Below, in pieces: positions 11 through 14,817 of a stretch of 20,096 nt of DNA; position 1 is the first letter of the stretch; each line of letters begins with the position of its first letter. A program made the position numbers and the translations under genes. The notes under the pieces are model-generated. The model did no database searches, was not told the DNA's origin, and was given only the letters and a program-made list of their open reading frames with translations. Source of the stretch: Desulfobacula sp. (lineage in GTDB: Bacteria > Desulfobacterota > Desulfobacteria > Desulfobacterales > Desulfobacteraceae); assembly GCF_021107415.1 (NCBI RefSeq), contig NZ_JAIOSW010000031.1, positions 1 to 20,096 of the forward strand. The letters are read 5' to 3'.

Positions 11-382
11 ATGGTAACAGAAAAAGAAAAAATTATATACATTATAACACGGGCAGGGGATGAACCTGAGCTTGCTGTGACTCCATTCTCTCTAGCTAAT
101 GTAGCCCTGGCCAGGGATGTTGAAGTTGTTGTAATATTGATGGGTTATGCAGTGATGCTGGCCACAAAAAATTATGCAAAGACTGTAATTGCACCGGAAA
201 GGCCTCCATTGCCGGATCTTATGGATGCCTTTCTTGAAGAGGGGGGTAAGCTTCTGATTTGCACGCCTTGCTATAAAGGTAGAGAAATCGAACAATCTGA
301 TCTCATCGATGGGGCGGAGCCTGTGACCGCGATGCGCGTGACGGACGAAATCATGTCAGCCAAGGCTGTTATATCCCTCTAA
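11..382 (+). CDS. DsrE-family sulfurtransferase-like protein
   Basis: A 123-residue soluble protein with no signal peptide, so probably cytoplasmic. The pattern fits the DsrE/DsrF-like fold: a hydrophobic first strand (IIYIIT), a helix with PFSLANVALA, a second strand (VEVVVILMGYAV), and a late loop GGKLLICTPC in which Cys84 and Cys87 form a CTPC motif where family members carry their sulfur-accepting cysteine. Small DsrE-like proteins accept persulfide sulfur from partners such as TusA or rhodaneses. The start is fixed by AGGAGGAAC at 1-9, right next to the window edge, so upstream operon genes may be missing. It precedes an exported TPR-like protein, a YeeE/YedE permease and TusA on the same strand, which supports a sulfur-relay role. 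The family call is solid; the exact sulfur donor and acceptor are inference. Confidence 0.85.
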   Translation: MVTEKEKIIYIITRAGDEPELAVTPFSLANVALARDVEVVVILMGYAVMLATKNYAKTVIAPERPPLPDLMDAFLEEGGKLLICTPCYKGREIEQSDLIDGAEPVTAMRVTDEIMSAKAVISL

Positions 383-454: not shown

Positions 455-928
455 ATGTGGCGTAAAAAATCGGTAATCACAACAATAGGAATCACCTTAC
501 TCTTTACCATGGTATTAGTAGTAACGGCTTTTTCCCAGGAGGGTTACAAGCTACCATGTCCCCCGGACAAAAAATTTTGCGCCCTGATGATCAGATTGGG
601 TAATGAGGCTTATGAGCGGGGCAAATACCTAGAAGCCAGGAAATATTACAGGATGGCCATTGCATCTGATCCTTCCTCAGCCAGGGGGTGGGCTTTGTAT
701 GACAGAAGCTTTCTGGCCCACATGGCTTACCAGGTAGAAAGGACGGGGAAATTCATCCCGTTTGTACCTACGGATGATATTAAAAAAATGTTCATGGCAG
801 TTCCACCGGGTGCCCCTGTCGATTCTGAACCAGTAAAAATTCCATCGGCGCCCCAGCCGCCGACAGATACTCCAGCCGGGGAAGAACAGCTTGAAGGAGT
901 AATCATCGGTGATGATGAAGGTTGTTAA
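455..928 (+). CDS. Exported TPR-like protein with C-terminal GDDEGC motif
   Basis: A 157-residue protein I cannot assign to a named family. Residues 1-27 form a Sec signal peptide (MWRKKS, a hydrophobic stretch, then AFS). The mature part has KFCALM followed by one helix-turn-helix TPR-like unit (NEAYERGKYLEARKYYRMAI, then ASDPS), a second helical stretch, a Pro-rich linker (about residues 120-145) and an acidic end EGVIIGDDEGC whose last residue is cysteine. A clear paralogue lies on the other strand at 9453-9803, with the same FC..M, ADPS and GDDEGC elements. I chose ATG 455 over GTG 431 because GGGAGGGAAGG sits just upstream and it begins the signal peptide. It lies between dsrE and the YeeE/YedE gene, 15 bp from the latter. 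Inference: the terminal Cys on a flexible tail could act as a sulfur-carrying arm in the periplasm. Confidence 0.85.
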   Translation: MWRKKSVITTIGITLLFTMVLVVTAFSQEGYKLPCPPDKKFCALMIRLGNEAYERGKYLEARKYYRMAIASDPSSARGWALYDRSFLAHMAYQVERTGKFIPFVPTDDIKKMFMAVPPGAPVDSEPVKIPSAPQPPTDTPAGEEQLEGVIIGDDEGC

Positions 929-943
929 AGGGAGGTGTGATCC

Positions 944-2131
944 ATGAGTGAAAACAATATCTATATAGTTCGGAAGATCCGGGAGGGGCATGCAGCTTTC
1001 TTCGAGAAAACATGGCCTTCCTGGGTAGGTGCTCTCCTTATTGCTTTTATCAGTATAATGATGTTTGCCTGGGGAAGACCATGGGGTGTAGTCGCAGGGA
1101 TGCGTAATTGGGGTGACTGGCTTTTTGTTTCCATGGGGCTTTACACGAAAACAATACAGTCACCCCTTATAAATTTTGCATCTATAATGGACATAGGGCT
1201 GATATTTGGCGCCTTTGCTTCCGCTCTCCTCGGAAGGGAGTTTAGTCTCAGGGTGCCCCCCCGCATTGAAATGGTAAAAGGTTTCATTGCCGGAATACTG
1301 ATGGGAATAGGGGCGGCTCTTGCAAGGGGATGTAATGTAGGGGGGTTCTATTCAGCCATAAGTGCCTATTCTTTAGGCGGTTTTGCCATGATGATAGGCC
1401 TGATTGCAGGGGCTTATGTTGGTCTACGTTATCTATTGTGGGACATGGAGAAGTTCCCACCCAAAATGAGCACCCCTGCAGCTAAAGGCACAAAAAAAAT
1501 AAAATATGACTGGCGGCCTGTTCAACCATATATCGGAGTGGCGGTCCTTGTGGCCGGAATTTTGGCTTCATTTCAATATTCGGCATTTGCCTATACCAAA
1601 GCAGGAGGATTTCTCCTGCTGGGACTTAGTATCGGTGTGGTAATGCATCGATCCCGCTTTTGTTTTGTGGCGGCGTTTCGGGACCCTTTTATGACCGGCG
1701 ACAGCCGCCAGACAAAGGCAGTTGCATTGAGTCTCATGGTTGCGGTAATCGGATATGGTATCATTAAATGGGCAGGTTTGAGGGGTGAAATGGTTTACGT
1801 GACCAATACCTTTTTTTTCGGGGGACTTGTAGGCGGATTTATCTTTGGTACCGGCATGGTGGTGGCCGGTGGCTGCGGCAGTGGGACCCTCTGGCGTGTG
1901 GGTGAAGGCCAGGTTAAGCTCTGGATGGTTCTTGTAAGTTTTGCCCTTACCAATTCCCTTGTTCGCTATTATATGGACACTACCGGTCTCATAGAAAAAG
2001 TAGGCCGGGCCGTGTTTTTACCTGACTGGATTACCTATAAATGGTCGGTCATACTGATACTGGCCATACTTATTCTATGGTATATTGCTGCGGACTGGAA
2101 TGAGGAAGGGGACGTCTTTGTAATAGACTGA
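944..2131 (+). CDS. YeeE/YedE-family sulfur-compound permease
   Basis: A 395-residue inner-membrane protein with about ten hydrophobic segments, made of two related halves as in Sulf_transp/YeeE-YedE proteins. Characteristic motifs are ARGCNVGGFYSA in the first half (Cys130), HRSRFCFVAAFRDPF (Cys240) and AGGCGSGTLWR in the second half (Cys311). In the thiosulfate uptake protein of this family, conserved pore cysteines pass the sulfur substrate through the membrane, and the cysteines here fall in the matching motifs. The substrate is probably thiosulfate or another sulfane-sulfur compound, but this cannot be read from the sequence. GGGAGGTG lies just before ATG 944, 15 bp after the preceding gene, so the two are surely co-transcribed. 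TusA follows after a 109-bp gap that holds a hairpin. The pairing with TusA and DsrE is the layout of the YTD cluster known from sulfur disproportionators. Confidence 0.93.
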   Translation: MSENNIYIVRKIREGHAAFFEKTWPSWVGALLIAFISIMMFAWGRPWGVVAGMRNWGDWLFVSMGLYTKTIQSPLINFASIMDIGLIFGAFASALLGREFSLRVPPRIEMVKGFIAGILMGIGAALARGCNVGGFYSAISAYSLGGFAMMIGLIAGAYVGLRYLLWDMEKFPPKMSTPAAKGTKKIKYDWRPVQPYIGVAVLVAGILASFQYSAFAYTKAGGFLLLGLSIGVVMHRSRFCFVAAFRDPFMTGDSRQTKAVALSLMVAVIGYGIIKWAGLRGEMVYVTNTFFFGGLVGGFIFGTGMVVAGGCGSGTLWRVGEGQVKLWMVLVSFALTNSLVRYYMDTTGLIEKVGRAVFLPDWITYKWSVILILAILILWYIAADWNEEGDVFVID

Positions 2132-2240: not shown

Positions 2241-2486
2241 ATGGATGTTAAAGAAATCAATGCAGATGTAACCTTGGATGTAAAAGGCTTAAGTTGTCCC
2301 ATGCCTTTATTGAAAACTAAAAAGGCATTAAAGAGTATGGAGTCGGGCCAGATTATCGAGGTTTTGGTGACTGATCCCGGTTTTAGAAATGACTTGCCTG
2401 ATTTTATAAAAAAGACAGGTGATGAGTGTATAGGAGACCTTGATGATGGAGAGGGTTTTTTTAAAATGTATATAAAGAAATCCTGA
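2241..2486 (+). CDS. tusA: TusA-family sulfurtransferase
   Basis: An 81-residue cytoplasmic sulfur carrier. The diagnostic motif is LSCPMPLLKTKKAL with the CPxP box at Cys19-Pro-Met-Pro22; this Cys carries the persulfide in TusA/SirA/YedF proteins. Length and the following pattern (strand IIEVLVTDPG, then FRNDLPDFIKKTGDE) are typical of the family. AAGGA at 2227-2231 lies 9 bp before the ATG. It is the last gene of the + strand group and would receive sulfur imported by the YeeE/YedE permease at 944-2131, passing it to the DsrE-like protein or to a dissimilatory enzyme elsewhere. It is not a tRNA-thiolation operon context (no tusBCD or mnmA here), so a dissimilatory role is more likely; that is inference from context. 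Confidence 0.93.
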   Translation: MDVKEINADVTLDVKGLSCPMPLLKTKKALKSMESGQIIEVLVTDPGFRNDLPDFIKKTGDECIGDLDDGEGFFKMYIKKS

Positions 2487-2527: not shown

Positions 2528-4225
2528 TTACCGTTTCTTTTGGTAATCCCACCATAGTGTTTTTAACCGCCATCTACGGTAAACCGGTGTTTTTTGTAAA
2601 ATATTCTGTGTTTCGATTTTTGAAAGTAATGACATCGAAGAATATACCGGCGGGGATGGCTTGGTCAGGGACAGATCCGGCCCCTGACCCTCCCAGAGGC
2701 CATAGCCTGCGGCAAGAGATTGCCCATGGCAGATTTCACAGCTTCTCCCACGTTTTTGAACCGTGTGCGGGTAGTATGGCATAAATGCCCAACCTCGCTC
2801 TCTCCCATCACCGCGGTTGGGGATGACATCATCTAAGATTACCCGACCCTTGGGGTTTACATAGGAAACACGGTACTGATAGCGTGGACGAAAAGGAACT
2901 ATTCTGCCTTGATGATTTTTTCCCAATGTAAGATATTCCCATCGTCGGAATCGCCAGCCCATCAGCCAGGGGCCGGGCGTTGAATCATCTGGAACGCCAA
3001 GAAACCGTCCATGGGCATCAAACAGTTCTGCGACAACAGCATCCCCCTGAAGACGCCATGGTGACCAGCGGGTCAAATCTATGCGATCGTCTCTGATCAG
3101 GCTTGGCCCGTAATCCATAAACCCCCAGGTAGAGTGACATCCCATACAGTGAACTTTTTCCATACCGGGTATGGCATGGGCGGGTATGGATGGGTCGCGA
3201 ACCGGTATACGCTGCCGTTTGCCCGTTCGAGAGTTAAAGATTCTCCAGGTCTTTCCAGTAAACTTTGATGACTTCACATCAGACCTTTCAGAATCGTGAC
3301 ATGACAGGCAGCGCACAGAAACCGCATCTTTTGCACTGGCTGCCATCCGTCCTCTTCCCATGACATCTCCCTGATTATGACAATCCACGCAAAGCAAACC
3401 TTTTTCATAATGGACATCCGCTTTCAGGCGATGATGATCCATGAGATATTTTTGTTCAGGCAGATATCCATTAATGATGGGTGTCCGATAGCTCTGACTA
3501 TAATCATGTTGAAACAAGCCGGTATAATCCGCTCCAACATGGGGGCCATTGTGACACTTGAGGCATTGACCGGTCGATATGGGCTTACAAAAAGTATGTG
3601 ACAGGGCATAACCGGTTTTTCCTTTCAATGCAGCATCCCCTCCCCGATAGCGGCCGTCATCTGCAAAGGGCACATGACAGGCAGCACATCCCACACCTCT
3701 GAACAGTCCTTTTTTCTTAGGCGGTACAGCCCCAATGTGACAGGAGATGCATCGGCGGCGCAATAAATCGTCCACAAGATCTGCTGGAGTTCTAACCTTT
3801 TCAGGGCTGCCCGGCAGGCCAGGCAGGTCTGGTCCTGGAACCGCACCATAATGTGTTCCAGGATCTGGTTGTGCACCCCAGAGAAACCGGGTCTGGTTGA
3901 TCATACCGGCCAGGGTCCAGTGCAGGGAGTGTTGAAGCCGATCAATTTCATCCAAGTGACAGCCACTGCAGAAGATATCAACTTGTGACAGAGACGACGG
4001 ATATCTGACAATCAGGCTATGATTCCGGATAATTATGCTGCGATTTTCCGGTGCTATGTGGCACTGCACACAGGGAAAATCATGATTTTCATCCATTGAT
4101 TCAATCCCTTTATGGCAGGTGAGGCACTCACGATAGTCATCCACCGTCCTTTCCGCTGCCCGGGGAGAACCGGGATACCAGATAACCTGGAGCAAAAACA
4201 GGCAGATTATAAACACAATCCTCAC
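2528..4225 (-). CDS. Decahaem cytochrome c, exported
   Basis: A 565-residue protein with a Sec signal peptide (about residues 1-24, MRIVFIICLFLLQVIW then AAERT) and ten CXXCH haem-binding motifs. These start with CLTCH (C34-H38), CVQCH, CSGCH, CISCH, CAACH, CLKCH, CVDCH, CLSCH and CMGCH, all in roughly the first two thirds, and end with one isolated CEICH near residue 496. About 130 residues without a haem motif (rich in W, R and Y) lie between haems 9 and 10 and may form a separate beta domain. The start is GTG at 4225, supported by AAAGGAGGTGCC directly upstream; it overlaps the stop of the preceding cytochrome gene (GTGA), indicating translational coupling. Last gene of the Rieske/cytochrome b operon. 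Likely role: periplasmic electron transfer from or to the membrane complex. I cannot name a specific family. Confidence 0.92.
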   Translation of the reverse strand: MRIVFIICLFLLQVIWYPGSPRAAERTVDDYRECLTCHKGIESMDENHDFPCVQCHIAPENRSIIIRNHSLIVRYPSSLSQVDIFCSGCHLDEIDRLQHSLHWTLAGMINQTRFLWGAQPDPGTHYGAVPGPDLPGLPGSPEKVRTPADLVDDLLRRRCISCHIGAVPPKKKGLFRGVGCAACHVPFADDGRYRGGDAALKGKTGYALSHTFCKPISTGQCLKCHNGPHVGADYTGLFQHDYSQSYRTPIINGYLPEQKYLMDHHRLKADVHYEKGLLCVDCHNQGDVMGRGRMAASAKDAVSVRCLSCHDSERSDVKSSKFTGKTWRIFNSRTGKRQRIPVRDPSIPAHAIPGMEKVHCMGCHSTWGFMDYGPSLIRDDRIDLTRWSPWRLQGDAVVAELFDAHGRFLGVPDDSTPGPWLMGWRFRRWEYLTLGKNHQGRIVPFRPRYQYRVSYVNPKGRVILDDVIPNRGDGRERGWAFMPYYPHTVQKRGRSCEICHGQSLAAGYGLWEGQGPDLSLTKPSPPVYSSMSLLSKIETQNILQKTPVYRRWRLKTLWWDYQKKR

Positions 4226-6051
4226 GGCACCTCCTTTCGACAGGCTACCTCACCTGCCTGAAACCGTAAAAAACTGTCATTGAAATCATTGAAAATTTTA
4301 TCGTCGTATTTATCATGGCAGGACACACACAGACCTACCCTTGTAATCCTGTCCAATTCTTCCTTATTAAAAGGCCGACTGTTTTTTCGGGAGGCAAGCT
4401 GGAAAGGAGTACCGTCGGGAGATTCAAATGCATCCAGAGGGAAATCAATGCCAAGACCGGATGCAGCCGCCTGGTAAACCGGATCGAAAACCAACCCTTT
4501 TTCGGTAATCTTCAATGCCCCGGTGCCCAGGCCTAGAATCTTTGGGTCCAGGTGGCACCCCTCACAATCCGGCACTTTCAGGGTGGTGGTATGGGGATCA
4601 AACCCGGCCATGACCAAATGTCGATGGGATTCTTCCGGCTGATGACGTCCCTTTTGGTCAAAAACTTCGATATAAACCTGACAGCCCGGTGCAAAAGGGC
4701 CGATACTATCGCCGGAATTAATCCCAAGGGTAGGACGTCGAAACCGCAGATAGCTTCTACCCTCCGTCCACCTCCCAGGTGATTTCTCACCGGTCAGCCA
4801 GTCTTTCTGGGATGCCTGTAAAAAAAGATTTTCATGGCAGCCATAGCATTGTGGGATCCAGGCACTGTGGCAGGCCTGACAAGAAAGCCGACGATGATAC
4901 TCAGCTTTGTGGATTTTAGGATTTAATACTCCGGAAAAAACGATTTCCTTACCATCCCTCTTGCGAAAGAGTTTCAGTTTTCCGTCTGATACAGCTTTGA
5001 GGTTATACATTGGGCTTTCTTTAGGTGAAAGGATAAACGGGCCTGCATTGACTGGTGTCTCACGTCCATTACCGCGCAGAAGCCGCCGGGTCAGATCGGG
5101 GTCTGGATCTTTCAACCGATATTCCGGTGTATGACAGGTGTTGCAGGTGATATCCACCTGGTCCTCTTGATGCTGGTATTCCTTGCCATCACCCATGATT
5201 CCTTTTTCCGTGTGGCAGTCAATACAGGTAAGACCAGCCTTGCTATGATGAACATCATAAGGCCGCTCCAGATAAAATCTATTTCCTGAAAGTTGCCGGG
5301 GACCCGGTTCCCCGTGTTGGTATGGTGTACCATAGCCTTCCGATTCAAACCGGCCGTAATAGGAAAGTCCGATTCGTGCGGAACGGTTATGACATTTGAG
5401 GCAGTTTTCATCAGGAATATGGGTGGTTAATTCCGGGTGATTAAATTTTTTCTGGGATAAATCAGAATTAAGACATACCAACTCTTGAATATGGCAGTCT
5501 GTGCACCCACCACCTCTTTTCCCGATTTCACCCAGCTGCGGATACCGGGGACGCCACAAATGACAGCCGCCGCACATCTTTCGATAGTGATCCAGGGCCA
5601 TACTCCGGCCAGTTGGAAGTGCGGTAAGCTGGCGGACATTTTGAACAGATTCAGCATCATTGTGGGGCCAAAGATTCTGCATCACGGAAAGAATACCTTG
5701 ATTGGTTGCCATGAGACTTTTTTTAACTCGCCCGGGCAGATCGGGATGACACTCAGGCTGTCCACAGGTTTTTTGCGCAACCTGTAAACTCCCCGGATTT
5801 CTGATCAAACCCAGGTGAGCTTTTTTTTTATCCAGGGCAAATGGATTGCCCATATGACATACTGCGCAGCCCATCACAGCCACTGGATGAGACACTGAAG
5901 GATCGGTATTCGTCTCATGACACATGGCACATCCATCCGGAGACCCCGGGGGTATTTTTTTTCGAATCACCTCATGCAAAAAAAGTAAGGCAACTATAAT
6001 CATCAACAGAAATAAGGGAATAAAATGATCCGATTTCTGACCTGGTTTCAT
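4222..6051 (-). CDS. Dodecahaem cytochrome c, membrane-anchored or exported
   Basis: A 609-residue protein with a hydrophobic segment at about residues 10-27 (signal peptide or uncleaved anchor). It carries eleven CXXCH motifs (CAMCH, CAVCH, CGGCH, CTDCH, CLKCH, CIDCH, CNTCH, CQACH, CYGCH, CEGCH, CVSCH) plus one CX4CH site, C96-GQPE-C101-H102, making up to twelve haems. The reading frame is open further upstream to 6210, but ATG 6051 is preferred: GGCAGGTGT precedes it, it overlaps the cytochrome b stop as ATGA, and it begins the hydrophobic leader. The longer form would only translate the antisense of nothing useful and would duplicate cytochrome b sequence. Residue 170-300 haem spacing resembles the decahaem neighbour (HNGP/HNRS and YGTPYQHG-type stretches), so the two are probably related by duplication. 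Probably takes the place of cytochrome c1 in the complex; that is inference. Confidence 0.92.
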   Translation of the reverse strand: MKPGQKSDHFIPLFLLMIIVALLFLHEVIRKKIPPGSPDGCAMCHETNTDPSVSHPVAVMGCAVCHMGNPFALDKKKAHLGLIRNPGSLQVAQKTCGQPECHPDLPGRVKKSLMATNQGILSVMQNLWPHNDAESVQNVRQLTALPTGRSMALDHYRKMCGGCHLWRPRYPQLGEIGKRGGGCTDCHIQELVCLNSDLSQKKFNHPELTTHIPDENCLKCHNRSARIGLSYYGRFESEGYGTPYQHGEPGPRQLSGNRFYLERPYDVHHSKAGLTCIDCHTEKGIMGDGKEYQHQEDQVDITCNTCHTPEYRLKDPDPDLTRRLLRGNGRETPVNAGPFILSPKESPMYNLKAVSDGKLKLFRKRDGKEIVFSGVLNPKIHKAEYHRRLSCQACHSAWIPQCYGCHENLFLQASQKDWLTGEKSPGRWTEGRSYLRFRRPTLGINSGDSIGPFAPGCQVYIEVFDQKGRHQPEESHRHLVMAGFDPHTTTLKVPDCEGCHLDPKILGLGTGALKITEKGLVFDPVYQAAASGLGIDFPLDAFESPDGTPFQLASRKNSRPFNKEELDRITRVGLCVSCHDKYDDKIFNDFNDSFLRFQAGEVACRKEVP

Positions 6052-6989
6052 CCGGATACACCTGCCAATATGGGTAAAAGGAACCACGCCACACACAGAA
6101 CAATCAAATGAATAACCCAAAGGATACCCGTTAAAATCCAGAATTGGCGAAAAGATGAAACCAAAGGAAATGCCAGAGCAAGCATGAATGATATTGGTGT
6201 CATCGGCCAAAGGATACCGACCATTAAAGGTGATCCATAGCGCAGAAGCAATTGGATGCCATGGAAAAACCAGGGGCCGGTAATGCCTGCTATCTCAGCT
6301 CTGGGCGGAATGTCAGGCGGAAGTTGATAGAAAAATGTGAGTACGCCTAGAATAACCAGCAGTAGAAGACCCAACCCTTTCTCAAGGAAAAGCCGTCGAC
6401 GGTGGCCACCAAGAAGAAAAATAACGAGAAGCGGCAAGGTAACGGTGTGATGAAGATAGGGACGAAGAAAAAAATCTTCGCCGGGTTTAAGTAGCAACAT
6501 GGCCAGGCCGGCTCCAACAATAGGAATTTCCCGGGCAAGATTGACCATTACTTCGCCGGCAAAAATGCCTTCTTTATCCCCTTTCAGGATAAATCCGGTA
6601 AATACCAGGGGAAAGCTTAAAAAAAATGCAGAAACCAACCGCAGCCATTCAATTGGTTTCATGTGAAGAAAGGTTCGTCGCAAAAAATGTTCAGACATAT
6701 GTGCCAGGGCAAACAATAAAAAACACTGTCCTGACAAATAGTGAAGCTTTCGAAAAAAAATGCCATAGGGAAACTGATAAGTCAATTTTGATAAGGCAAG
6801 ATATACATTTCCCCATGGGCGATAATTAAAGGATAGGACAATACCCGATACAAGTGCAATAATAAATGCCCACCATGATAAAATAGCCAGGGACCGCCCG
6901 AAACGGTCACTAAAAAATGATGAACCGCCCTGTGATTGAAAAAAGGAGCAGGTCAAAAAATTGGCAATTTGGCAGTATAAACGCCGCAT
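6048..6989 (-). CDS. Short cytochrome b of a bc/b6f-type complex
   Basis: A 313-residue integral membrane protein with about eight hydrophobic segments. Haem b ligands are visible: H83-X13-H97 in helix B and H181-X14-H196 in helix D. The X14 spacing of helix D is the b6f pattern rather than the X13 of mitochondrial-type bc1. After the fourth helix comes LPPDIPPRAEIAGITGPWFF (residues 223-242), which sits where the Qo-site PEWY motif is expected but reads GPWF, so the conserved Glu is missing. Neighbours are a Rieske protein upstream (37-bp overlap) and a dodecahaem cytochrome downstream (4-bp overlap). No good ribosome site precedes ATG 6989; TTG at 6956, overlapping the Rieske stop, is an alternative start giving 302 residues. 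It probably oxidises or reduces menaquinol; direction is unknown. Confidence 0.9.
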   Translation of the reverse strand: MRRLYCQIANFLTCSFFQSQGGSSFFSDRFGRSLAILSWWAFIIALVSGIVLSFNYRPWGNVYLALSKLTYQFPYGIFFRKLHYLSGQCFLLFALAHMSEHFLRRTFLHMKPIEWLRLVSAFFLSFPLVFTGFILKGDKEGIFAGEVMVNLAREIPIVGAGLAMLLLKPGEDFFLRPYLHHTVTLPLLVIFLLGGHRRRLFLEKGLGLLLLVILGVLTFFYQLPPDIPPRAEIAGITGPWFFHGIQLLLRYGSPLMVGILWPMTPISFMLALAFPLVSSFRQFWILTGILWVIHLIVLCVAWFLLPILAGVSG

Positions 6990-7411
6990 TTATCATCTAC
7001 TATAAGTTCAAGTCCGAACATGTTCTTTTGCGCCGGGCCTTCCACTCGTAGTCCTTCTAAAGAAAAACGTGAACCATGGCAGGGGCACAAAAAATGCAAG
7101 GATTGCTCATCGTAAAACAATTGGCACCCCAGATGAGGGCATCGTTCGGAAAGAGCCTTTACTCCATTCTCCAGTCCCACCAGATAAACGCCCTGATCGT
7201 AAACAACTTCCCCTTTTTGAGGCTTGTGATGAAAAGAAACCACAAGATCAGAAGGAGTATTACCATGAATAAACTTCCAAATTAAAAAAAACAAGCCGCC
7301 CGCTGCAAAAAACTGAATGCAGCGGGCAACAAGCTCTCTTCGTGTTATTGATAAAAAATCTTTTATCACAGGTTCTGATCGAGATGAACCTGATGTTTTG
7401 ATATTTTCCAT
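6953..7411 (-). CDS. Rieske 2Fe-2S protein
   Basis: A 152-residue protein. The two Rieske cluster-binding boxes are intact: CPHLGC and CPCHGSRF, each giving one Cys and one His ligand, with the extra disulfide Cys in each. The N-terminal half has ITRRELVARC followed by a hydrophobic segment, the arrangement of a twin-arginine signal that stays as a membrane anchor, as in bc1/b6f Rieske subunits. The short C-terminal part after the second box (GLRVEGPAQKN...LELIVDD) is typical. ATG 7411 lies 46 bp inside the end of the pentahaem cytochrome gene and has no visible Shine-Dalgarno sequence, so translation probably depends on ribosomes arriving from that gene. It is followed by cytochrome b with an overlap. 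Role: electron transfer between the Qo site and the cytochromes c. Confidence 0.93.
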   Translation of the reverse strand: MENIKTSGSSRSEPVIKDFLSITRRELVARCIQFFAAGGLFFLIWKFIHGNTPSDLVVSFHHKPQKGEVVYDQGVYLVGLENGVKALSERCPHLGCQLFYDEQSLHFLCPCHGSRFSLEGLRVEGPAQKNMFGLELIVDDKCGVYTAKLPIF

Positions 7412-8646
7412 ACAAAATGGTCTTGGTTTGCCTCCCCAAATGGAAGATATACCAATCGAACTTCCACTTCCATGGTATCGGTGGTCAGAATTCGGTTTCC
7501 TTCTTGGGTATCCTTATACGGGAACACAACCTCAAAGGTCTCCCGAACCGGTCGAAGCGGCGGCAGGGCTGTGTCTCGTATCATGCCGCTCTTCTCATAG
7601 GGTCCTCTGCCCATACGGTCGGTGATACCGAATCTGGCCGGATGGGGCATGTATATTTTTGATTGTCGACTAACTTCTTTGCCTTCATAGGTTCGCGCGA
7701 TCACTTCCAGGATCAGCCGGTTGGGCGTGGGTCAGCCATCCGGGATGCCGTGTCCGGTCCGGTTGGTCAATTCCACCTGAACAGTGGCCAGCGGCAAAAC
7801 ACCCTCGGTTTTGTTTTTGCGCCAATGGTGGCTATGCACCTCCACCTGCATCTCCACTGCCGCCTCCTGCATGTCCGGATCACGATAAGAAGGCATGGCA
7901 TGCCCTTTTTCCATACGACTCATATGACAATCCTGACAGGTATTGGTACCCCCTTCCGGAATATATGCCCAAAGATAACTGCCGTATCCTGTGGCACACT
8001 GGGTAGGCTGTTCCAGATGAAACCCTGGCCCAAGACCATGGCACTGACCGCAGAGAATAGACTCTTTCAGTATCGGGCTTTTCTTTATATCGGGATGATC
8101 TTCGTCCTCATGCTCGCCTTCCATGGTGCCGTATACTTCAGTGCGCTCAGGTGTACCAAATTGCCATTTGTGAATGATGGCATTGCGCTGATGGCAGACG
8201 AGACAATTGATGGAAAGTTTTCCCAGTTTTTTGTTGTCCCGGGCCCACACGGCCTGAACGATCTCCTGGGCAACATCATCAGTGGCCTCGGCAAGCTGGG
8301 GCAAATGGCATCTGGCGCATATCATGAGATGTTCAATTTTAACATCTTCTTTCTTTTTCACGCCCGAATACGGCCATGTCATGAGCCCACGTGTTATTGC
8401 AGTTTTAAAGGTGGCACGAGTTCGACCGTGACCAGATCCAACCATGGAAAGAGAATGGGCTGAGCTTTCCCACTCATGAAACTGATCTTCATGGCAGTCG
8501 ATACAGGTGCTGACATCATATCTATCTGCCAGCTCATCAATGGTCTTTGCTTTGGGAAGTTCTTCGCCCTCAACAACATGTACGATCCCAGTTAACAGGA
8601 ATAGGACAATCCATATCAGTGCGAAAGAATATCGAGATCCGTTCAT
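7366..8646 (-). CDS. Pentahaem cytochrome c with in-frame UGA (candidate selenoprotein)
   Basis: Read straight through one UGA codon at 7734-7732, this frame gives 426 residues. Residues 1-27 are a Sec signal peptide. Five haem motifs follow: CIDCH (C48), CARCH (C110), CLVCH (C148), CGQCH (C199) and CQDCH (C237). Residues from about 265 on form a beta-rich domain with the NRTGHGIPDG motif, the kind of GHxxPxG signature found in many multihaem cytochromes of this type. UGA is residue 305, directly after that motif, and 121 further sense codons continue in the same frame with family-like sequence (PTPNRLILEVIART...). The frame ends with a double stop, TGA TAA. A hairpin lies just after the UGA. 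GAAGGAG precedes ATG 8646. Selenocysteine is the favoured reading; a point mutation making two fragments (7732-8646 and a remnant) is the alternative. Substrate unknown. Confidence 0.8.
7695..7717 (-). promoter_or_regulatory. Candidate bacterial SECIS hairpin
   Basis: In the transcript, GCTGATC (from 15 nt after the UGA) pairs with GATCGCGC with one bulged C; inside, a further C-G pair past a bulged U leaves a UGGAA loop with G as second base. The loop starts 22 nt after the UGA, within the usual distance for bacterial SECIS elements. Drawn by eye, not folded by program. Confidence 0.45.
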
Positions 8647-8757: not shown

Positions 8758-9345
8758 TTAATACGCATGAAATTCACGAATGGTATAGGGATCTTTTTCC
8801 TTACCTGCGTTTGGTCCTTTTTTATACTTTCCTGTAAAATATTTGTGGTACTCCACTACCTTAAATTGGCCCATGAACTGGTTGCACAAAGGATATCCCT
8901 TTTTAATCCAGCCGACTATACCCTCTTGATAAAGCCAGACATTGGTGTACCCGTACATAGCCAAAAAGCCTCCAACATAACATTGACGTTTTTTGGTCCG
9001 GCACCAGACAACGATCTTGGCATCCTTATTCTTTATTTTTTTCGGGATAGTATACATGTGACCGGAATGTATGTGGTTAGTTCCGGCAATATGGCCGGCG
9101 TAAAATTCTGGATGGGTCCGAGTGTCAATAAGGTAGGCTTCTTCTTTCCCTGCCATTACTTGATCATAAAGCGCCTTGAACTGATTGATATCCAATCGTC
9201 GCTCTGGGGGAACTTTATTGCACCATTCTGACCAGACTTCTTTTTCTTTGGCTTTTAATGCTTTAGAATCATCTGCAAGTGCCAGGGAAACATAAAAACT
9301 ACTCATAAAAAAAACAAACGCCATTAAAGCAACTAACTTCTTCAT
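8758..9345 (-). CDS. Exported rhodanese-domain protein
   Basis: A 195-residue protein with a Sec signal peptide (MKKLVALMAFVFFMSS, ending around LALA). The rhodanese domain shows LIDTRTHPEFYAGHIAGTNHI (the DxR and GHI signature) and an active-site loop KIVVWCRTKKRQ, where the Cys is the persulfide-forming residue, followed by a second Cys two residues beyond the loop. The tail GWIKKGYPLCNQF is also typical. I chose ATG 9345 rather than the in-frame ATG 9396 because GCAGGAGGAAG lies just before it and it begins the signal peptide. It lies between the gene for the second GDDEGC protein and the pentahaem cytochrome gene. Role: periplasmic transfer or binding of sulfane sulfur, likely feeding this electron-transfer system; the substrate is inference. 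Confidence 0.92.
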   Translation of the reverse strand: MKKLVALMAFVFFMSSFYVSLALADDSKALKAKEKEVWSEWCNKVPPERRLDINQFKALYDQVMAGKEEAYLIDTRTHPEFYAGHIAGTNHIHSGHMYTIPKKIKNKDAKIVVWCRTKKRQCYVGGFLAMYGYTNVWLYQEGIVGWIKKGYPLCNQFMGQFKVVEYHKYFTGKYKKGPNAGKEKDPYTIREFHAY

Positions 9346-9452: not shown

Positions 9453-9803
9453 TCAGCACCCTTCATCATCACCCATGATGATCCCGCCTTCTTCTTGTGT
9501 TTCTGCCGCCGGAGGCTGAGGCGTTGTTCCCGATTCAGAGGCATTTCCCTCTTTCATTTGAAACCATATTTTAGCTATTTGGGATGGATCAGCGTTAACA
9601 GCCTGTTGGAAATAGTAGCCGGCTTTTTCATCATAGCCAAGGGCAGAAGATTCTTCTGCATGGGTCAACATCGTTTTACAAAAGGCCTGTCGTTTAGCGT
9701 CAAACCCTTTTTTTTCTTTTGCAGGAGCAATTCCGGACATCAGAAACAGCAGTGATATTACCAGTCCGGTAAAAAAAATCTTTTTGATTGGGATGGATTG
9801 CAT
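9453..9803 (-). CDS. Exported TPR-like protein with C-terminal GDDEGC motif (paralogue)
   Basis: A 116-residue paralogue of the protein at 455-928. Residues 1-28 are a Sec signal peptide (ISLLFLMSGIAPAKE). The mature part has AFCKTM, one TPR-like helical hairpin (AEESSALGYDEKAGYYFQQA then VNADPS), a Pro/Thr/Glu-rich linker and the end GGIIMGDDEGC. Shared with the paralogue are FC..M, the YY and ADPS positions in the hairpin, a following Trp, and the last six residues exactly. It is shorter because the second helical stretch is missing. AGAGGAGAT precedes ATG 9803. It is the first gene of the minus-strand group that runs through the rhodanese and the Rieske/b/multihaem genes. Family unknown; partnership with the rhodanese is inferred from position. 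Confidence 0.85.
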   Translation of the reverse strand: MQSIPIKKIFFTGLVISLLFLMSGIAPAKEKKGFDAKRQAFCKTMLTHAEESSALGYDEKAGYYFQQAVNADPSQIAKIWFQMKEGNASESGTTPQPPAAETQEEGGIIMGDDEGC

Positions 9804-9978: not shown

Positions 9979-9985
9979 ATTGACC

Positions 9986-10267
9986 ATGATAAAAGACTTT
10001 AAATGCAAAAAAACTAAATTTATATTTAATGGTCTTTTTTCTAAAAAATTGCCGCAGGATATACAGAGGTTGGCAGAAAGGAAGCTAATTATGCTTCATA
10101 GATCTACTGAAATCAATGATCTTAGAGTGCCGCCCGCAAACCGGCTTGAAACGCTCAGTGGCAATCGGAAGGGACAACACAGCATACGCATAAATAAAAA
10201 ATGGCGCATTTGTTTTGAATGGAAAAAGGATGGCGTATATGGTGTTGAGATTGTTGATTATCATTAA
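9986..10267 (+). CDS. higB: HigB/RelE-family toxin
   Basis: A 93-residue protein of the HigB type, an mRNA interferase related to RelE that cleaves mRNA at the ribosome. Family features seen are a basic N-terminal half (FSKKLPQDIQRLAERKL), the conserved stretch DLRVPPANRLETLSGNRKGQHSIRIN and the C-terminal KKWRICFEW...GVEIVDYH, where RICFEW and the final YH are diagnostic. ATG 9986 is used; an in-frame TTG at 9980 lies inside the -10 region and is unlikely. No Shine-Dalgarno sequence is visible, and the promoter at 9950-9978 would start transcription at about the ATG. The antitoxin gene follows 12 bp later with a strong ribosome site, so the layout favours antitoxin over toxin synthesis. Toxin-first order is usual for higBA. 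Confidence 0.93.
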   Translation: MIKDFKCKKTKFIFNGLFSKKLPQDIQRLAERKLIMLHRSTEINDLRVPPANRLETLSGNRKGQHSIRINKKWRICFEWKKDGVYGVEIVDYH

Positions 10268-10279
10268 GGAGGTGCTATT

Positions 10280-10579
10280 ATGAGAGATTTCCCCCCTACA
10301 CACCCTGGTGAAATACTACTTGAAGAGTTTTTAAAACCAATGGGTATAAGCCAATATCGAATTGCTAAGGATATCGGCGTTCCGGCCATGAGAATAAATA
10401 AAATTGTCCGATTTGAAAGAGGAATCAGTGTGGATACTGCTCTAAGATTAGCGCGTTATTTTGGAATGTCTGTTGATTTTTGGACGGGAATTCAGGTTCA
10501 CTATGATACTGAAATGGCCAAAATGCAGTTAGGTGACAGATTGGAAAGAGAAGTCAAGACGTTTGACCCTGCTGCTTGA
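10280..10579 (+). CDS. higA: HigA-family antitoxin
   Basis: A 99-residue DNA-binding antitoxin of the HigA/VapI type. It begins with the signature THPGEILLEEFLKPMGISQ, followed by a helix-turn-helix (YRIAKDIGVPAMRINKIV) and the family tail DTALRLARYFGMSVDFWTGIQVHYD. It binds and blocks the HigB toxin encoded just upstream and is expected to repress the shared promoter at 9950-9978. AAGGAGGTG (10266-10274) is a nearly perfect ribosome site that overlaps the higB stop codon, so it should be translated well. No terminator hairpin is evident after the gene; three TTCAAT-like copies occur in the AT-rich stretch just beyond it. Confidence 0.94.
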   Translation: MRDFPPTHPGEILLEEFLKPMGISQYRIAKDIGVPAMRINKIVRFERGISVDTALRLARYFGMSVDFWTGIQVHYDTEMAKMQLGDRLEREVKTFDPAA

Positions 10580-10794: not shown

Positions 10795-12774
10795 ATGTCA
10801 AGTAGATGGGTATATCTTTTTGATGAAATAGATACTGCACAGGAGCATGCCGGTGGCGATTGGGAGAAAGTCCGTGGGCTCTTGGGTGGGAAAGGGGCAA
10901 ACCTTGGGGAGATGACAAGAATTAATATTCCTGTACCACCGGGTTTCACCATAACAACCCAAGCATGCAATGCTTATCTTGAGTCAGGCGGAATAATGCC
11001 GGATAACCTGTGGGAGCAGGTGCAAGAGGGGCTTGCAAAGGTGGAGATCCAAGCGGGTAAAAAATTTGGTGATGTCCAAAATCCTCTCCTTGTTTCCTGC
11101 AGGTCAGGGGCCAGGTTTTCCATGCCGGGAATGATGGATACGGTCCTGAATATAGGGCTTAATGAAAAAACCGTTGAGCAGATGATAACAATGACCAGGG
11201 ATGCCAGATTTGTATATGACTCGTACAGACGGCTTATACAGATGTTCGGAAGCGTTGTGACAGGTATTGACGATGCCCTGTTTGAGAATATTATTACTGA
11301 CACACGGATGAAGGCAGGGGTTAAAAATGACACAGAACTGACAGGTGATCACTGGAAGGGGATATGCGAAAAATTCAAAATAATTTTCAGCAGGCAGACA
11401 CAGCATACTTTTCCCGAGGATCCTCTTGAACAGCTTAAAATGGCCACTGAGGCTGTCTTTGAGAGCTGGAACGGCAAGAGAGCAGTTGATTACCGCAATG
11501 CAGCAAGGATACCCCACCATCTTGGAACCGCAGTTAATATTCAGGCCATGGTTTTTGGAAATGTAGGGGAAGACTGCGCCACAGGGGTGGCTCTTACCCG
11601 TAACGGTACGACCGGCGAAAAGGCTATAGAAGGGGACTATCTGATAAACGCCCAGGGAGAAGATGTGGTCGCCGGTATTCGCCTGACAAAGAACCTTTTA
11701 GACATGAACAGCGAAATGCCGGATATATACAGGGAATTCAAAAGGATTGCCCAGGTACTGGAAGATCATTATCGTGAGATGCAGGATGTTGAGTTTACCA
11801 TAGAGAAAGGTAAACTGTGGATGCTTCAAACCCGGGATGGAAAAAGAACTGCCCAGGCTGCTGTTCGCATAGCCGTTGAAATGACTCAAGAAGAAAAGAT
11901 TTCAAAACAAGAGGCTGTAATGCGTATTACACCCGAACAGGTTGATTTTTTTCTCCACCCCCAGTTTGATCAAGCGTCATTGAAACGAGCTGTCCAGCAA
12001 GGAGAAATGCTGGCTGCCGGATTAAATGTATCCCCGGGAGCTGCTGTCGGCCAGGTGGTTTTTGATGCAGATATAGCAGAGGCATGGGCGAAAGATACCA
12101 ACAAAAAAGTGATCATGGTAAGACCTGAGACAAGACCGGATGATGTTCATGGAATGCTGGCATCAGAGGGGATTCTTACAAGCCGGGGAGGAAGAACAAG
12201 TCATGCAGCCCTTGTTGCGCGCCAGTTTGGGAAACCGGCTGTGGTTGGGGTGTCAGATATTAATATTGACTTGACAAACCGGAGTATGGACATCAATGGT
12301 CTTGAAATCAAAGAGGGGGACTGGATTTCCGTGGATGGCACATCCGGGGAGGTATATCTTGGAAAACTCTCCACAATGATCCCGGATATCAAGGACCCAT
12401 GGCTGATCAAGCTGCTGTCCTGGGCTGATGAATTTCGGGATCTGGGTGTCTGGGCCAATGCTGATTACCCCAAAGACGCAAAAAGAGCCCTGGACTATGG
12501 AGCTGAGGGCATCGGGCTTTGCCGGTCGGAGCATATGTTTTTTGAAACCGAAAGGCTTCCTCATTTCACGAAAATGATCATGACTGATTTTCCCATTGAG
12601 CGTCAGGAATCCCTTGATGCCCTTCTTCCCTTTCAACGGGAGGACTTTGCAGGGCTATTCAGGGTAATGGACGGCAAATCAGTTGTCATCCGCCTGATTG
12701 ATCCACCGCTCCACGAATTCTTACCGGATCACATTGAGCTTTTAAACTTCAAATCAGGGATGCTACAACATTGA
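10795..12774 (+). CDS. ppdK: Pyruvate phosphate dikinase, N-terminal 659 residues (frameshifted)
   Basis: Interconverts pyruvate + ATP + Pi and PEP + AMP + PPi in the cytoplasm. This part holds the ATP-grasp nucleotide-binding domain (GGKGANLGEMTRINIPVPPGF near residue 30, then RSGARFSMPGMMDT), the phosphohistidine domain with the swivelling His in GGRTSHAALVAR (about residue 470), and the start of the PEP/pyruvate barrel (GLCRSEHMFF, RLIDPPLHEFLP). AGGAGGTG precedes ATG 10795. The frame runs into a TGA at 12772-12774 just after FLPDHIELL, while the rest of the enzyme continues in the -1 frame. The break coincides with T TTA AAC at 12741-12747. Either a programmed -1 shift makes a 920-residue enzyme, or a base has been lost by mutation or sequencing error. 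The usual length is about 870-920 residues. Confidence 0.93.
   Translation: MSSRWVYLFDEIDTAQEHAGGDWEKVRGLLGGKGANLGEMTRINIPVPPGFTITTQACNAYLESGGIMPDNLWEQVQEGLAKVEIQAGKKFGDVQNPLLVSCRSGARFSMPGMMDTVLNIGLNEKTVEQMITMTRDARFVYDSYRRLIQMFGSVVTGIDDALFENIITDTRMKAGVKNDTELTGDHWKGICEKFKIIFSRQTQHTFPEDPLEQLKMATEAVFESWNGKRAVDYRNAARIPHHLGTAVNIQAMVFGNVGEDCATGVALTRNGTTGEKAIEGDYLINAQGEDVVAGIRLTKNLLDMNSEMPDIYREFKRIAQVLEDHYREMQDVEFTIEKGKLWMLQTRDGKRTAQAAVRIAVEMTQEEKISKQEAVMRITPEQVDFFLHPQFDQASLKRAVQQGEMLAAGLNVSPGAAVGQVVFDADIAEAWAKDTNKKVIMVRPETRPDDVHGMLASEGILTSRGGRTSHAALVARQFGKPAVVGVSDINIDLTNRSMDINGLEIKEGDWISVDGTSGEVYLGKLSTMIPDIKDPWLIKLLSWADEFRDLGVWANADYPKDAKRALDYGAEGIGLCRSEHMFFETERLPHFTKMIMTDFPIERQESLDALLPFQREDFAGLFRVMDGKSVVIRLIDPPLHEFLPDHIELLNFKSGMLQH
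12741..12747 (+). other. Candidate -1 slippery heptamer in ppdK
   Basis: T TTA AAC in the zero frame is a canonical X XXY YYZ slippery site. A -1 shift here joins ...HIELLN to LQIRDATTLKQMDD and restores the enzyme. No convincing downstream pseudoknot or hairpin at the usual distance was seen, which weakens the case. Confidence 0.35.
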
Positions 12775-13556
12775 AGCAGATGGATGATCTTATTGAAAAA
12801 ATCAGGGAAAAGGAAAAAATGCTTAAACGAGTTGAAAGTCTCCGTGAAGCAAATCCAATGCTGGGCCTTCGGGGTGTGCGTCTTGGGATCTATATCCCGG
12901 AATTAACCATCATGCAGGTCAGGGCCATTTTTGAGGCCGCCTGTATGGTCATCCGGGAAGGGAAAAAGATTAAACCGAAAATAATGATTCCCCTTACATG
13001 TCATGTAAATGAATTAAAAAAACAAAGACAGCTTCTTGAACAAGAAGCAAAAAAGACCATGGAAAAAGAGGGTATTAAGGTCGATTACAGTTTCGGAACA
13101 ATGATTGAGCTGCCCCGTGCAGCCCTGACAGCGGACCAAATAGTAGAATATGCATCATTTGTATCTTTTGGAACAAATGACCTGACACAAACAACTTTTG
13201 GCATTTCAAGGGATGATGCAGAGACAGGATTTCTTATTGAGTATATGGAATCCGGGATTCTCCCTGAAAATCCATTTGAGGTTATTGATCGGGATGGAGT
13301 TGGTCAGCTTCTTAAAATGGCAGTGGAAAAAGGCAGATCTGTTAAGCCTGACCTGGAGTGCGGGATCTGCGGTGAACATGGCGGAGACCCTCAGTCGATC
13401 CATTTGTGCCATGACTTGAAGTTTACATATGTGTCCTGTTCACCTTTCAGGGTGCCCATTGCCAGGCTGGCGGCTGCCCATGCCGCCATCAAAACATCAG
13501 GTATGATAGATACACAAAAGGGGCCGGATCAAAAGAGCACAGAAAAATCATTATAA
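12771..13556 (+). CDS. ppdK: Pyruvate phosphate dikinase, C-terminal part (-1 frame)
   Basis: Continues the PEP/pyruvate-binding barrel: ANPMLGLRGVRLGIYIPE, MIPLTCHVNELK, GTMIELPRAAL, SFGTNDLTQTTFGISRDD, and the catalytic-site stretch CGICGEHGGDPQSI with the general acid/base Cys, then SCSPFRVPIARLAAAHA, the usual C-terminus. The frame is open from 12738, so the true join lies between there and 12774. TTG 12771, which overlaps the TGA of the upstream part (TTGA), could alternatively start a separate protein by re-initiation, but no ribosome site precedes it. The last residues (about 20, KGPDQKSTEKSL) are a tail not needed for the fold. All visible catalytic residues are intact, so the gene is not decayed apart from the frame break. 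Confidence 0.9.
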   Translation: MKQMDDLIEKIREKEKMLKRVESLREANPMLGLRGVRLGIYIPELTIMQVRAIFEAACMVIREGKKIKPKIMIPLTCHVNELKKQRQLLEQEAKKTMEKEGIKVDYSFGTMIELPRAALTADQIVEYASFVSFGTNDLTQTTFGISRDDAETGFLIEYMESGILPENPFEVIDRDGVGQLLKMAVEKGRSVKPDLECGICGEHGGDPQSIHLCHDLKFTYVSCSPFRVPIARLAAAHAAIKTSGMIDTQKGPDQKSTEKSL

Positions 13557-13558
13557 AA

Positions 13559-13579
13559 AAGTTTTAATGTTTAAAACTT
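13559..13579. terminator. AT-rich hairpin between convergent ppdK and purH
   Basis: AAGTTTTAA (13559-13567) and TTAAAACTT (13571-13579) form a perfect 9-bp stem with a 3-nt loop. It starts 2 bp after the ppdK stop and overlaps the transformylase stop codon; runs of A and T flank it, so it may end transcription on both strands. Confidence 0.5.
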
Positions 13580-14814
13580 CTCTGGCCCGTGTAAACCATT
13601 GTTGCATCGTTTTCATTACAGGCTTCAATAGATTGATAATCATTCATGGAACCCCCTGGCTGCACCACGGCTTTTACACCCTGTAAAAGTCCCACGTCAA
13701 TGCCGTCTCGAAAAGGAAAGAAGGCATCAGACACCATGGTTGACCCGATAAGTCCGCCTTTGACCTCTTTCACATCATTTTCAATTTGTGCCCTCTTGTC
13801 AGTATCTGTCAGATCGGCAAAGGAAATTCCATATTTTTCAAAACTATACCTGTCGGCAAGTTTGCGGTAGGCTTTGTCCACAGCTATTTCCGCCACACCT
13901 ACCCTGTCCTGCTCACCGGTTCCAATCCCCACCGTGACATTATCTTTCACATAAATCACTGAATTGGATGTAATGCCGGATTCCACCAGCCATCCGAACA
14001 GCATGTCTTGTAATTCGGCTTGGGTGGGCTCACGATTGACCTTGTATGTTTTTTTCTTATATTCTGTTGAAGCCACAATTAAATCCTTTTCAGACAGGGT
14101 TTGGGGAACAAAGGACCATTGGGCAACCATGCCGCCATCCATCAGGGTTTTAAAATCAATCACACGTTCACCGATAAAGCTCTGGAGCTTATCAATATTA
14201 TTAATCCGGATAACTCGTAAATTTTTCCGAGCTCCAAGAATGTCTATAACCCCTTCCTCAAATTCCGGGGCCACCACAACTTCGGCATATTGGTTGGCAA
14301 TGGCCTGGGCTGTAGCCTTATCCACTGCTTTATTGAGTGCAATACAGCCGCCAAACGCTGCCACACGATCTGCCATATAGGCTTTATTATAGGCTTGTTC
14401 AAGGCTTTGCGCTCGTGCAGCCCCGCAGGGATTGTTATGTTTGACAATCACGGCACATGGGGTATCAGTAAAATATCTTAAAATATTCAGGGCATTATCG
14501 GCATCGGTAAGATTGGTTTTTCCCGGATGCTTTCCCGATTGAAGCAATTCAATATCAGAAACCAGGTATTTGCCCGGCGTAATGGTCTTTGCATCGCCAA
14601 GGGCCAGGTTACCGTTGACAAGCCTGTAAAGCGCTGCTTCCTGACCGGGATTTTCACCATATCTTAATCCCTTGTTCACATCATCAATCACCCATGAAAT
14701 CTTTTCATAAAAAAGGGTCTGTCTTTTATCCCCTTCAACAAAAGAAACTTCCATTTGCGGGGTAAAATGATCATCCATAATTGTTTTATACATCGCTTTG
14801 AGATCTTTAGACAT
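13564..14814 (-). CDS. purH: AICAR transformylase (separate PurH C-terminal domain)
   Basis: A 416-residue stand-alone version of the formyltransferase domain of PurH, which adds a formyl group from 10-formyl-THF to AICAR in the ninth step of purine synthesis. Seen are RYGENPGQEAALY, the catalytic VIVKHNNPCGAA (Lys-His pair), AFGGCIALNKAVDKATAQ and the end PGGSMNDYQSIEACNE...MVYTGQRSFKH, close to the canonical QPGGSxRD and the FTGxRHFxH finish. The usual bifunctional PurH is about 520 residues; here the cyclohydrolase domain is a separate gene just upstream. CAGGAGAATAAGC precedes ATG 14814 and overlaps the stop of that gene (3-bp gap), so the two enzymes are made together. Confidence 0.92.
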   Translation of the reverse strand: MSKDLKAMYKTIMDDHFTPQMEVSFVEGDKRQTLFYEKISWVIDDVNKGLRYGENPGQEAALYRLVNGNLALGDAKTITPGKYLVSDIELLQSGKHPGKTNLTDADNALNILRYFTDTPCAVIVKHNNPCGAARAQSLEQAYNKAYMADRVAAFGGCIALNKAVDKATAQAIANQYAEVVVAPEFEEGVIDILGARKNLRVIRINNIDKLQSFIGERVIDFKTLMDGGMVAQWSFVPQTLSEKDLIVASTEYKKKTYKVNREPTQAELQDMLFGWLVESGITSNSVIYVKDNVTVGIGTGEQDRVGVAEIAVDKAYRKLADRYSFEKYGISFADLTDTDKRAQIENDVKEVKGGLIGSTMVSDAFFPFRDGIDVGLLQGVKAVVQPGGSMNDYQSIEACNENDATMVYTGQRSFKH

Positions 14815-14817
14815 TGC

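Follow-up and report, generated by a model that had tools for sequence, protein, structure and literature searches.

A predicted selenocysteine codon in an extKL-type pentahaem cytochrome gene of Desulfobacula sp.

A cytochrome c gene of Desulfobacula sp. carries a UGA triplet within a reading frame that then stays open for a further 121 codons. The gene lies in a stretch of 20,096 nucleotides (positions 1 to 20,096 of contig NZ_JAIOSW010000031.1, assembly GCF_021107415.1; hereafter the window), and it raises a simple question: does the UGA end the protein, or is it read as an amino acid, and if so as which one? Based on sequence comparison, we propose that the gene is of the extKL type and that its UGA is very probably read as selenocysteine (Sec), with a probability of roughly 0.95.

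A pentahaem cytochrome frame with one UGA

The open reading frame (ORF) that stops at the UGA (8646-7732, minus strand) encodes 304 amino acids and has the C-terminal end NRTGHGIPDG. The whole frame (8646-7366, minus strand) starts with MNGSRYSF, continues after the UGA with PTPNRLILEV and ends in HLDQNL, followed by TGA-TAA. The chance of an open run of 121 codons in a random frame of the same base composition is 0.0007. The haem motif CXXCH occurs five times, at residues 48, 110, 148, 199 and 237. An earlier, sequence-only reading of this DNA had described a pentahaem cytochrome c frame with a single UGA at 7734-7732, placed between GHGIPDG and PTPNRL and followed by 121 open codons before a double stop, and a hairpin with a UGGAA loop 22 nucleotides past the UGA. 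We recovered all of these features: the codon reads TGA, the same frame is open to the TGA-TAA, both flanks appear in the translation, and the hairpin is present and folds at -7.0 kcal/mol.

Read through, the protein scores 535.6 bits against NCBIfam NF040886, 'multiheme c-type cytochrome (seleno)protein ExtKL' (cut-off 250 bits), with a match over positions 10-422 of a profile of 423. Scored separately, the head gives 397.2 bits and the post-UGA tail 91.7 bits, and the post-UGA stretch alone matches positions 326-422 with an E-value of 3.7e-26. The family profile also finds PDB chains 9wt8, 9wt9, 9wta, 9wtb and 9wtc, named 'Multiheme cytochrome c selenoprotein (MccSep)' and including a U325A mutant. 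These chains, known to us by the names and sequences of their entries, have 450 residues and run through the Sec site; residue 305 of the window protein aligns with X in 9wt8 and with Ala in 9wt9 (U325A). With ExtKL/MccSep of Geobacter, the window protein shares five CXXCH motifs, a whole-length match, ext-like gene neighbours and a Sec, predicted in our case, at one aligned position (305 in the window, 325 in Geobacter).

The ExtKL (MccSep) selenoprotein family has already been described, and the window gene is another member of it. A paper of 2007 put forward GSU2937 and GSU2936 of Geobacter as one selenoprotein; its authors saw no Sec-less homologue, found no selenocysteine insertion sequence (SECIS) and left a two-gene operon possible (PMC1914089). 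ExtK and ExtL have been said to possibly form a single protein (PMC6148476), ExtKL was named a candidate selenoprotein for selenite reduction (PMC5877670), and a 2026 review lists it with the prokaryotic selenoprotein families (PMC13188914). Among open-licence PMC papers, none was found for the phrases MccSep or multihaem cytochrome c selenoprotein.

Relatives of the gene were collected in two ways. A protein search found 1189 homologues, of which 120 were listed, and a contig scan found 193 relatives, of which the best 80 were kept as the loci counted below. Of the 120 listed homologues, 105 (the window's own included) terminate exactly at GHxxPDG, and 3 have Cys at the Sec site. At the DNA level, the site is TGA in 80/80 loci and never TAA or TAG. 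It is preceded by PDG or ADG and followed by PTPNR in 79 loci and PSPNR in one, and the tail beyond it has 112-135 codons in 78 loci, with one of 38 codons and one that leaves its contig. The nonsynonymous rate (dN) is below the synonymous rate (dS) in head and tail alike in 9/9 pairs compared; between L003 and L004, for example, dN and dS are 0.035 and 0.14 in the head and 0.023 and 0.18 in the tail. Purifying selection acts on the tail as it does on the head. A scan of viral contigs returned no relative.

Among the listed homologues, 12 five-haem proteins have neither Sec nor Cys at the site (P0037, P0042, P0047, P0049, P0051, P0052, P0054, P0056, P0058, P0062, P0069 and P0085). In two of the three Cys forms (P0017 and P0021), the second haem motif is CFQCS or CFKCT and not CXXCH. 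No Sec-less clade was found among 99 genomes around G018.

An AlphaFold2 model of the window protein (mean predicted local distance difference test, pLDDT, 84.2; predicted template-modelling score 0.81) combines helices, which hold the haem motifs, with a beta part that starts near residue 264. It places residue 305 in a loop joining strand 282-295 to strand 310-319; the block that holds it has pLDDT 73. Among PDB entries, the model comes closest in fold to pentahaem cytochrome c552 of Thermochromatium tepidum (5ze8, TM-score 0.54 / 0.60), which is also a weak sequence match; the fold library used ends in April 2026 and lists no MccSep entry. The two proteins differ in that the fold alignment has 16% identity and the listings for 5ze8 give no hint of Sec.

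The hairpin after the UGA

Bacterial selenoprotein genes are expected to have a SECIS hairpin shortly past the UGA, and such a hairpin is present in the window gene. It belongs to what we call class A (GGUCC-UGGAA-GUGACC; 49 loci and the window), and it differs from the hairpin of Geobacter-type loci, class B, which is nearly invariant in 31 loci (ACCGAC-UGGUUCU-GUCGGU). Hairpin stability lies above the mean of synonymous shuffles in all 81 sequences (window and 80 loci), with a mean z of -1.6.

Codon choice points in the same direction. We measured codon identity within the commonest residue at each position over the window and the 80 loci; 0.20-0.33 is expected from codon usage. The identity is 1.00 at positions +6 (CTG 59/59), +8 (CTG 80/80) and +9 (TCG 31/31, in a single class) and 0.83 at +11. 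Further raised values are found at -11, -1, +4, +21 and +23, and many other sites are near expectation. In addition, paired positions change on both sides: in class A, 5 of the 46 distinct sequences, including that of the window, have A-U in place of G-C at one pair, and L079 has G-C in place of C-G at another. A conserved, putative recoding hairpin after the UGA in the ExtKL family is well supported by these comparisons. A scan with Rfam gave no match in the window; to our knowledge, Rfam holds no bacterial SECIS family.

Weighing selenocysteine against other readings of the UGA

Relatives of the window gene occur in genomes with the machinery for Sec. We searched the genomes of 18 relatives and 14 control genomes. 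All 18 relatives have a tRNA-Sec above the gathering score, with best hits of 68.8-82.9 bits and a next tier of up to 48.8 bits, and selB is above cut-off in 16. In the three of these genomes (those of L001, L002 and L036) in which they were sought, selD is above cut-off in all, each time with one in-frame UGA, and selA in two. Taken together, the family match, the PDB alignment, the UGA in 80/80 loci, the Cys homologues, the hairpin and the relatives' Sec machinery support the view of the sequence-only reading that the UGA is likely a Sec codon. Its further remark that Sec would be unusual in such a haem protein does not stand, as a selenoprotein was already proposed in 2007 (PMC1914089). The observation and the Sec interpretation hold; the novelty of the Sec protein does not.

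Several observations weigh against Sec. The window hairpin is matched or exceeded in stability by 6.5% of synonymous shuffles, and taken by itself it is weak evidence for Sec. RNAalifold yields no consensus for the class A hairpins, so the pairs of the window structure were counted by a script: 245 of 255 cells are paired in 51 distinct sequences (class A and five of a sister family described below), with a shuffle mean of 232 and 0/2000 shuffles as high. The counted structure derives from one sequence, and related sequences may beat shuffles without any structure; we have therefore put the weight on codon identity and two-sided changes. The Sec machinery also has gaps. In 2 of the 18 relatives' genomes no intact selB was seen: the gene is split over two frames in that of L002, and no full copy was seen in that of L036. 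selA is a fragment at a contig end in the genome of the nearest relative, L001. Control genomes exceed the thresholds as well (tRNA-Sec in 5/14, selB in 2/14; selA in 1/14 and selD in 2/14). Lastly, the comparison of homologues at residue 305, which the sequence-only reading had proposed as a check, came out mixed: the UGA at 80/80 loci and the Cys in 3/120 listed homologues speak for Sec, whereas 12/120 have neither residue. In these 12, the whole PDGUPTPNRL motif is gone and there is no stop at the site, where they typically have GHSLPGSGSTQKRL instead, and we therefore take them as forms that lost Sec. Fifteen full-length forms are among the 120 listed homologues; the seven that we scanned (all 3 with Cys and 4 of the 12 with neither) pass the NF040886 cut-off.

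The UGA could instead be a true stop, with ExtK and ExtL encoded by two genes that are coupled in translation and lie in a conserved operon. The Geobacter genes are annotated in this way, as GSU2937 and GSU2936 (PMC1914089, PMC6148476), and in the window a GTG 28 nucleotides past the UGA opens an ORF of 112 amino acids. This arrangement is highly improbable, however, given a stop that is never TAA or TAG, residues that are conserved between the UGA and the GTG, a sense codon at the site of a single protein in 15/120 listed homologues, the constraint on hairpin and codons, and PDB chains that span the site. A sequencing error or the mark of a pseudogene is the least credible explanation: another gene nearby looks broken (a frameshift at about 12771, see below), but the UGA is found at the same codon in 80 independent loci and the tail evolves under purifying selection. 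It is also very unlikely that the UGA is read as some other amino acid, through reassignment or plain stop-codon readthrough. An open frame alone cannot name the residue, and 12 listed homologues have other residues there. However, UGA also terminates this gene and that at 9453-9803, so the code of the window is not reassigned, and the hairpin, the Cys homologues, the relatives' Sec machinery and PDB entries named selenoprotein all favor Sec. If the UGA is read as Sec, as we conclude, the window gene brings a further lineage into a published, little-studied selenoprotein family, and the conserved hairpin and the Sec-less homologues, both missing from the 2007 proposal, are now supplied.

Neighboring genes, a sister family and possible function

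The gene is surrounded by others of the same kinds as those in ext clusters (Table 1). Genes for a Rieske protein, a cytochrome b and two multihaem cytochromes lie downstream on the same strand, and those for a rhodanese-domain protein and a small protein ending in GDDEGC lie upstream. The listed Rieske ORF overlaps the end of the extKL-type gene, and its real start is possibly further in; the rhodanese ORF is listed from 9396, and we picked the start by eye. The cluster differs from that of Geobacter in that the ExtM and ExtP matches are under the NCBIfam cut-offs, the rhodanese protein does not match the ExtH model (and has no NCBIfam match above a cut-off), and the small protein does not match the ExtJ model (and has no Pfam match). 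No ExtI porin turned up in our scans of the window, although no search aimed at porins was made. Two related loci bear on the plus-strand genes. In L002, genes for a TPR-like protein, YedE, TusA, a second GDDEGC protein and ExtKL follow each other on one strand, and the order in L001 is ExtKL, a TPR-like protein with C-terminal MDGC, YedE and TusA. On the basis of these gene orders, the plus-strand genes of the window (TPR-like, YedE and TusA, and DsrE by proximity alone) plausibly share a system with ExtKL.

Table 1. Features of the predicted selenocytochrome locus in the window
Feature	Position	Strand	Basis
extKL-type gene, pentahaem cytochrome c selenoprotein (predicted), 426 residues, Sec at 305	7366..8646, stop codon included	minus	NF040886 match
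Predicted Sec codon, in-frame UGA	7732..7734	minus	UGA at 80/80 related loci
SECIS-type hairpin (putative), stem GAUCC/G(U)GAUC, loop UGGAA at 7705-7709	7699..7714	minus	Folding, codon choice, pair counts
Rhodanese-domain protein, hydrophobic N-terminus, directly upstream of extKL-type gene	8758..9345	minus	Pfam PF00581
Small protein, hydrophobic N-terminus, C-terminal GDDEGC	9453..9803	minus	ORF and homologues
Rieske protein	6953..7411	minus	Pfam PF00355
Cytochrome b	6048..6989	minus	Nearest NCBIfam model ExtP, 85 bits (cut-off 290, not reached)
Multihaem cytochrome, 11 CXXCH	4222..6210	minus	Nearest NCBIfam model ExtM, 304 bits (cut-off 800)
Multihaem cytochrome, 10 CXXCH	2528..4225	minus	Nearest NCBIfam model ExtM, 202 bits (cut-off 800)
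DsrE-family protein, counted in the system by proximity only	11..382	plus	Pfam PF02635
TPR-like protein, hydrophobic N-terminus, C-terminal GDDEGC	455..928	plus	TPR under gathering scores; homologue by ExtKL in L002
YedE/YeeE-type transporter	944..2131	plus	PF04143; under NCBIfam cut-offs
TusA-type sulfurtransferase	2241..2486	plus	Pfam PF01206; under NCBIfam cut-offs

A Gly-Cys C-terminus is common to proteins of different families beside ExtKL. Every one of the 31 class B loci has an ORF with a Gly-Cys end that terminates no more than 350 nucleotides upstream of ExtKL and encodes a small exported protein; six of these ExtJ-position proteins were scanned, and all match the ExtJ model, three of them above its cut-off. 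A longer ORF with this ending (over 300 amino acids, within 4 kb upstream) is present in 21 of the 26 class B loci with enough sequence and absent from the other 5, and the two such proteins that we scanned are both ExtH, above cut-off. In six frames, the window and its 80 related loci contain 3412 ORFs of 70 amino acids or more, and 69 of them end in Gly-Cys. Of these, 63 are on the ExtKL strand within 4 kb, and some of the 63 are probably no genes. L001 and the window have such ORFs elsewhere than directly upstream of ExtKL, and in L002 the GDDEGC proteins are at L002:226-741 and L002:2535-2930. The tail is kept in all 7 listed homologues of the window protein at 455-928 (the window's included, one as ADDEGC) and in all 8 of that at 9453-9803 (the window's included, one as GDDGGC). 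The stop codons after Gly-Cys are mixed (TGA 17, TAA 9, TAG 6); this rules out that the tails are really Gly-Cys-Sec, and Gly-Cys is the true C-terminus. The word 'C-terminal' is absent from the main text of PMC5877670, and among open-licence PMC papers we found none that pairs ExtKL or ExtJ with 'C-terminal cysteine'.

A distant sister family of five-haem cytochromes has a UGA at the same site. We searched 297 genomes from the phylum to which G016 belongs (its locus, L033, bears the title Vicinamibacteria). One genome was above the NF040886 cut-off, and five further matches of 151-208 bits were found in four genomes, each with one internal TGA (sister-family loci L085-L088 and L109-L113). The UGA is at the ExtKL Sec site (AGHRxPD[GT]-U-PW) and is followed by a hairpin that resembles that of ExtKL, with the variable pair C-G, G-C or A-U in four of five and a mismatch in L110. 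Read through, four of the proteins score 159-216 bits against the NF040886 cut-off of 250, and no NCBIfam family is above cut-off. selA is above cut-off in all four genomes; for tRNA-Sec, three of them reach 72.6-76.1 bits and G142 no more than 51.

The neighbors of the sister cytochrome are also sulfur-related. In 4 of 5 regions, a YedE-type gene and a SoxY or SoxYZ-like gene directly precede the cytochrome gene, and the contig of the fifth (L111) breaks off about 170 nucleotides upstream of it. The YedE-type proteins have 39-44% identity to that of the window. Three of the four SoxY-type proteins have a Gly-Cys arm after the SoxY domain, and the shortened one of L109 lacks it. The sulfur carrier SoxYZ is a neighbor of the sister cytochrome, not a homologue, and its Gly-Cys arm is comparable with the tails in the ExtKL clusters. 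The SoxY-type proteins differ from SoxYZ in being under the NCBIfam cut-offs, and all four also match the desulfoferrodoxin Pfam model. We know of no Sox enzyme that uses Sec, and among open-licence PMC papers none was found on SoxYZ with a selenoprotein.

How might the window protein work? SelB and tRNA-Sec would decode the UGA, directed by the downstream hairpin. The product, judging from its N-terminus and motifs, would pass into the periplasm and receive five c haems. Sec would then sit in the inter-strand loop of the modelled C-terminal beta domain, within GHGIPDGUPTPNRL. Gene order and the Geobacter literature suggest, as a tentative proposal on which we would not insist, that the protein is a Sec oxidoreductase of a periplasmic electron chain for sulfur or selenium compounds, with electrons passing via the haems between the quinone pool and Sec. 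We count in its support the sulfur-related neighbors and the finding that loss of ExtI, encoded in the Geobacter extHIJKLMNOPQS cluster, impairs selenite and tellurite reduction (PMC5877670). Many class A loci lack a recurrent neighbor, as judged by eye, and this weighs against the proposal. Alternatively, the protein could belong to a conduit that carries electrons across the outer membrane to metals or electrodes; its identity as a selenoprotein would be unchanged. Geobacter ext clusters have been studied as electron conduits, and ExtKL was commoner on Fe(III) (PMC5877670 and PMC6148476). However, the cytochrome gene has sulfur-related neighbors in the window, in L001 and L002 and in the sister family, and we regard the conduit function as unlikely.

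Neighbors with thiol arms or tails, resembling proteins that carry sulfur, occur in several branches of the family. They are the unexpected part of these results, and they suggest a testable partner for Sec, an exposed carrier thiol. We speculate that the selenocytochromes, ExtKL and the sister family alike, could be redox enzymes of a periplasmic sulfur or selenium carrier system, in which Sec makes or breaks a bond with an exposed cysteine on the flexible arm or tail of a partner while the haems carry electrons; this is doubtful, more so than the proposal of a quinone-linked oxidoreductase. In the sister family this partner would be the SoxYZ-like protein; in the ExtKL clusters, ExtH, ExtJ and the GDDEGC proteins would offer their Gly-Cys-COOH tails. 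YedE and TusA would pass the chalcogen through the membrane and onward behind it. If true, such a system would parallel Sox carrier chemistry but use selenium, and it might run in the reductive direction. The step in which Sec acts on carrier thiols is speculative. Against it are the absence of an upstream Gly-Cys ORF from 45 of 46 class A loci (L002 has one), the lack of a recurrent class A neighbor and the 12 Sec-less homologues.

Further along the window, a HigB-like toxin gene and a helix-turn-helix antitoxin-like gene (9980-10579, plus strand) lie between the ext-like cluster and a gene for pyruvate phosphate dikinase (10795-13556, plus strand). The latter consists of two overlapping ORFs with a frameshift at about 12771, and the halves match consecutive parts of PF02896. 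Two adjoining ORFs at 13564-15501 (minus strand) resemble, by eye, separately encoded halves of a PurH-type enzyme. At 16368-19964 (plus strand), the window encodes a protein of 1198 amino acids with a hydrophobic N-terminus and Calx-beta domains that is cysteine-rich towards its C-terminus.
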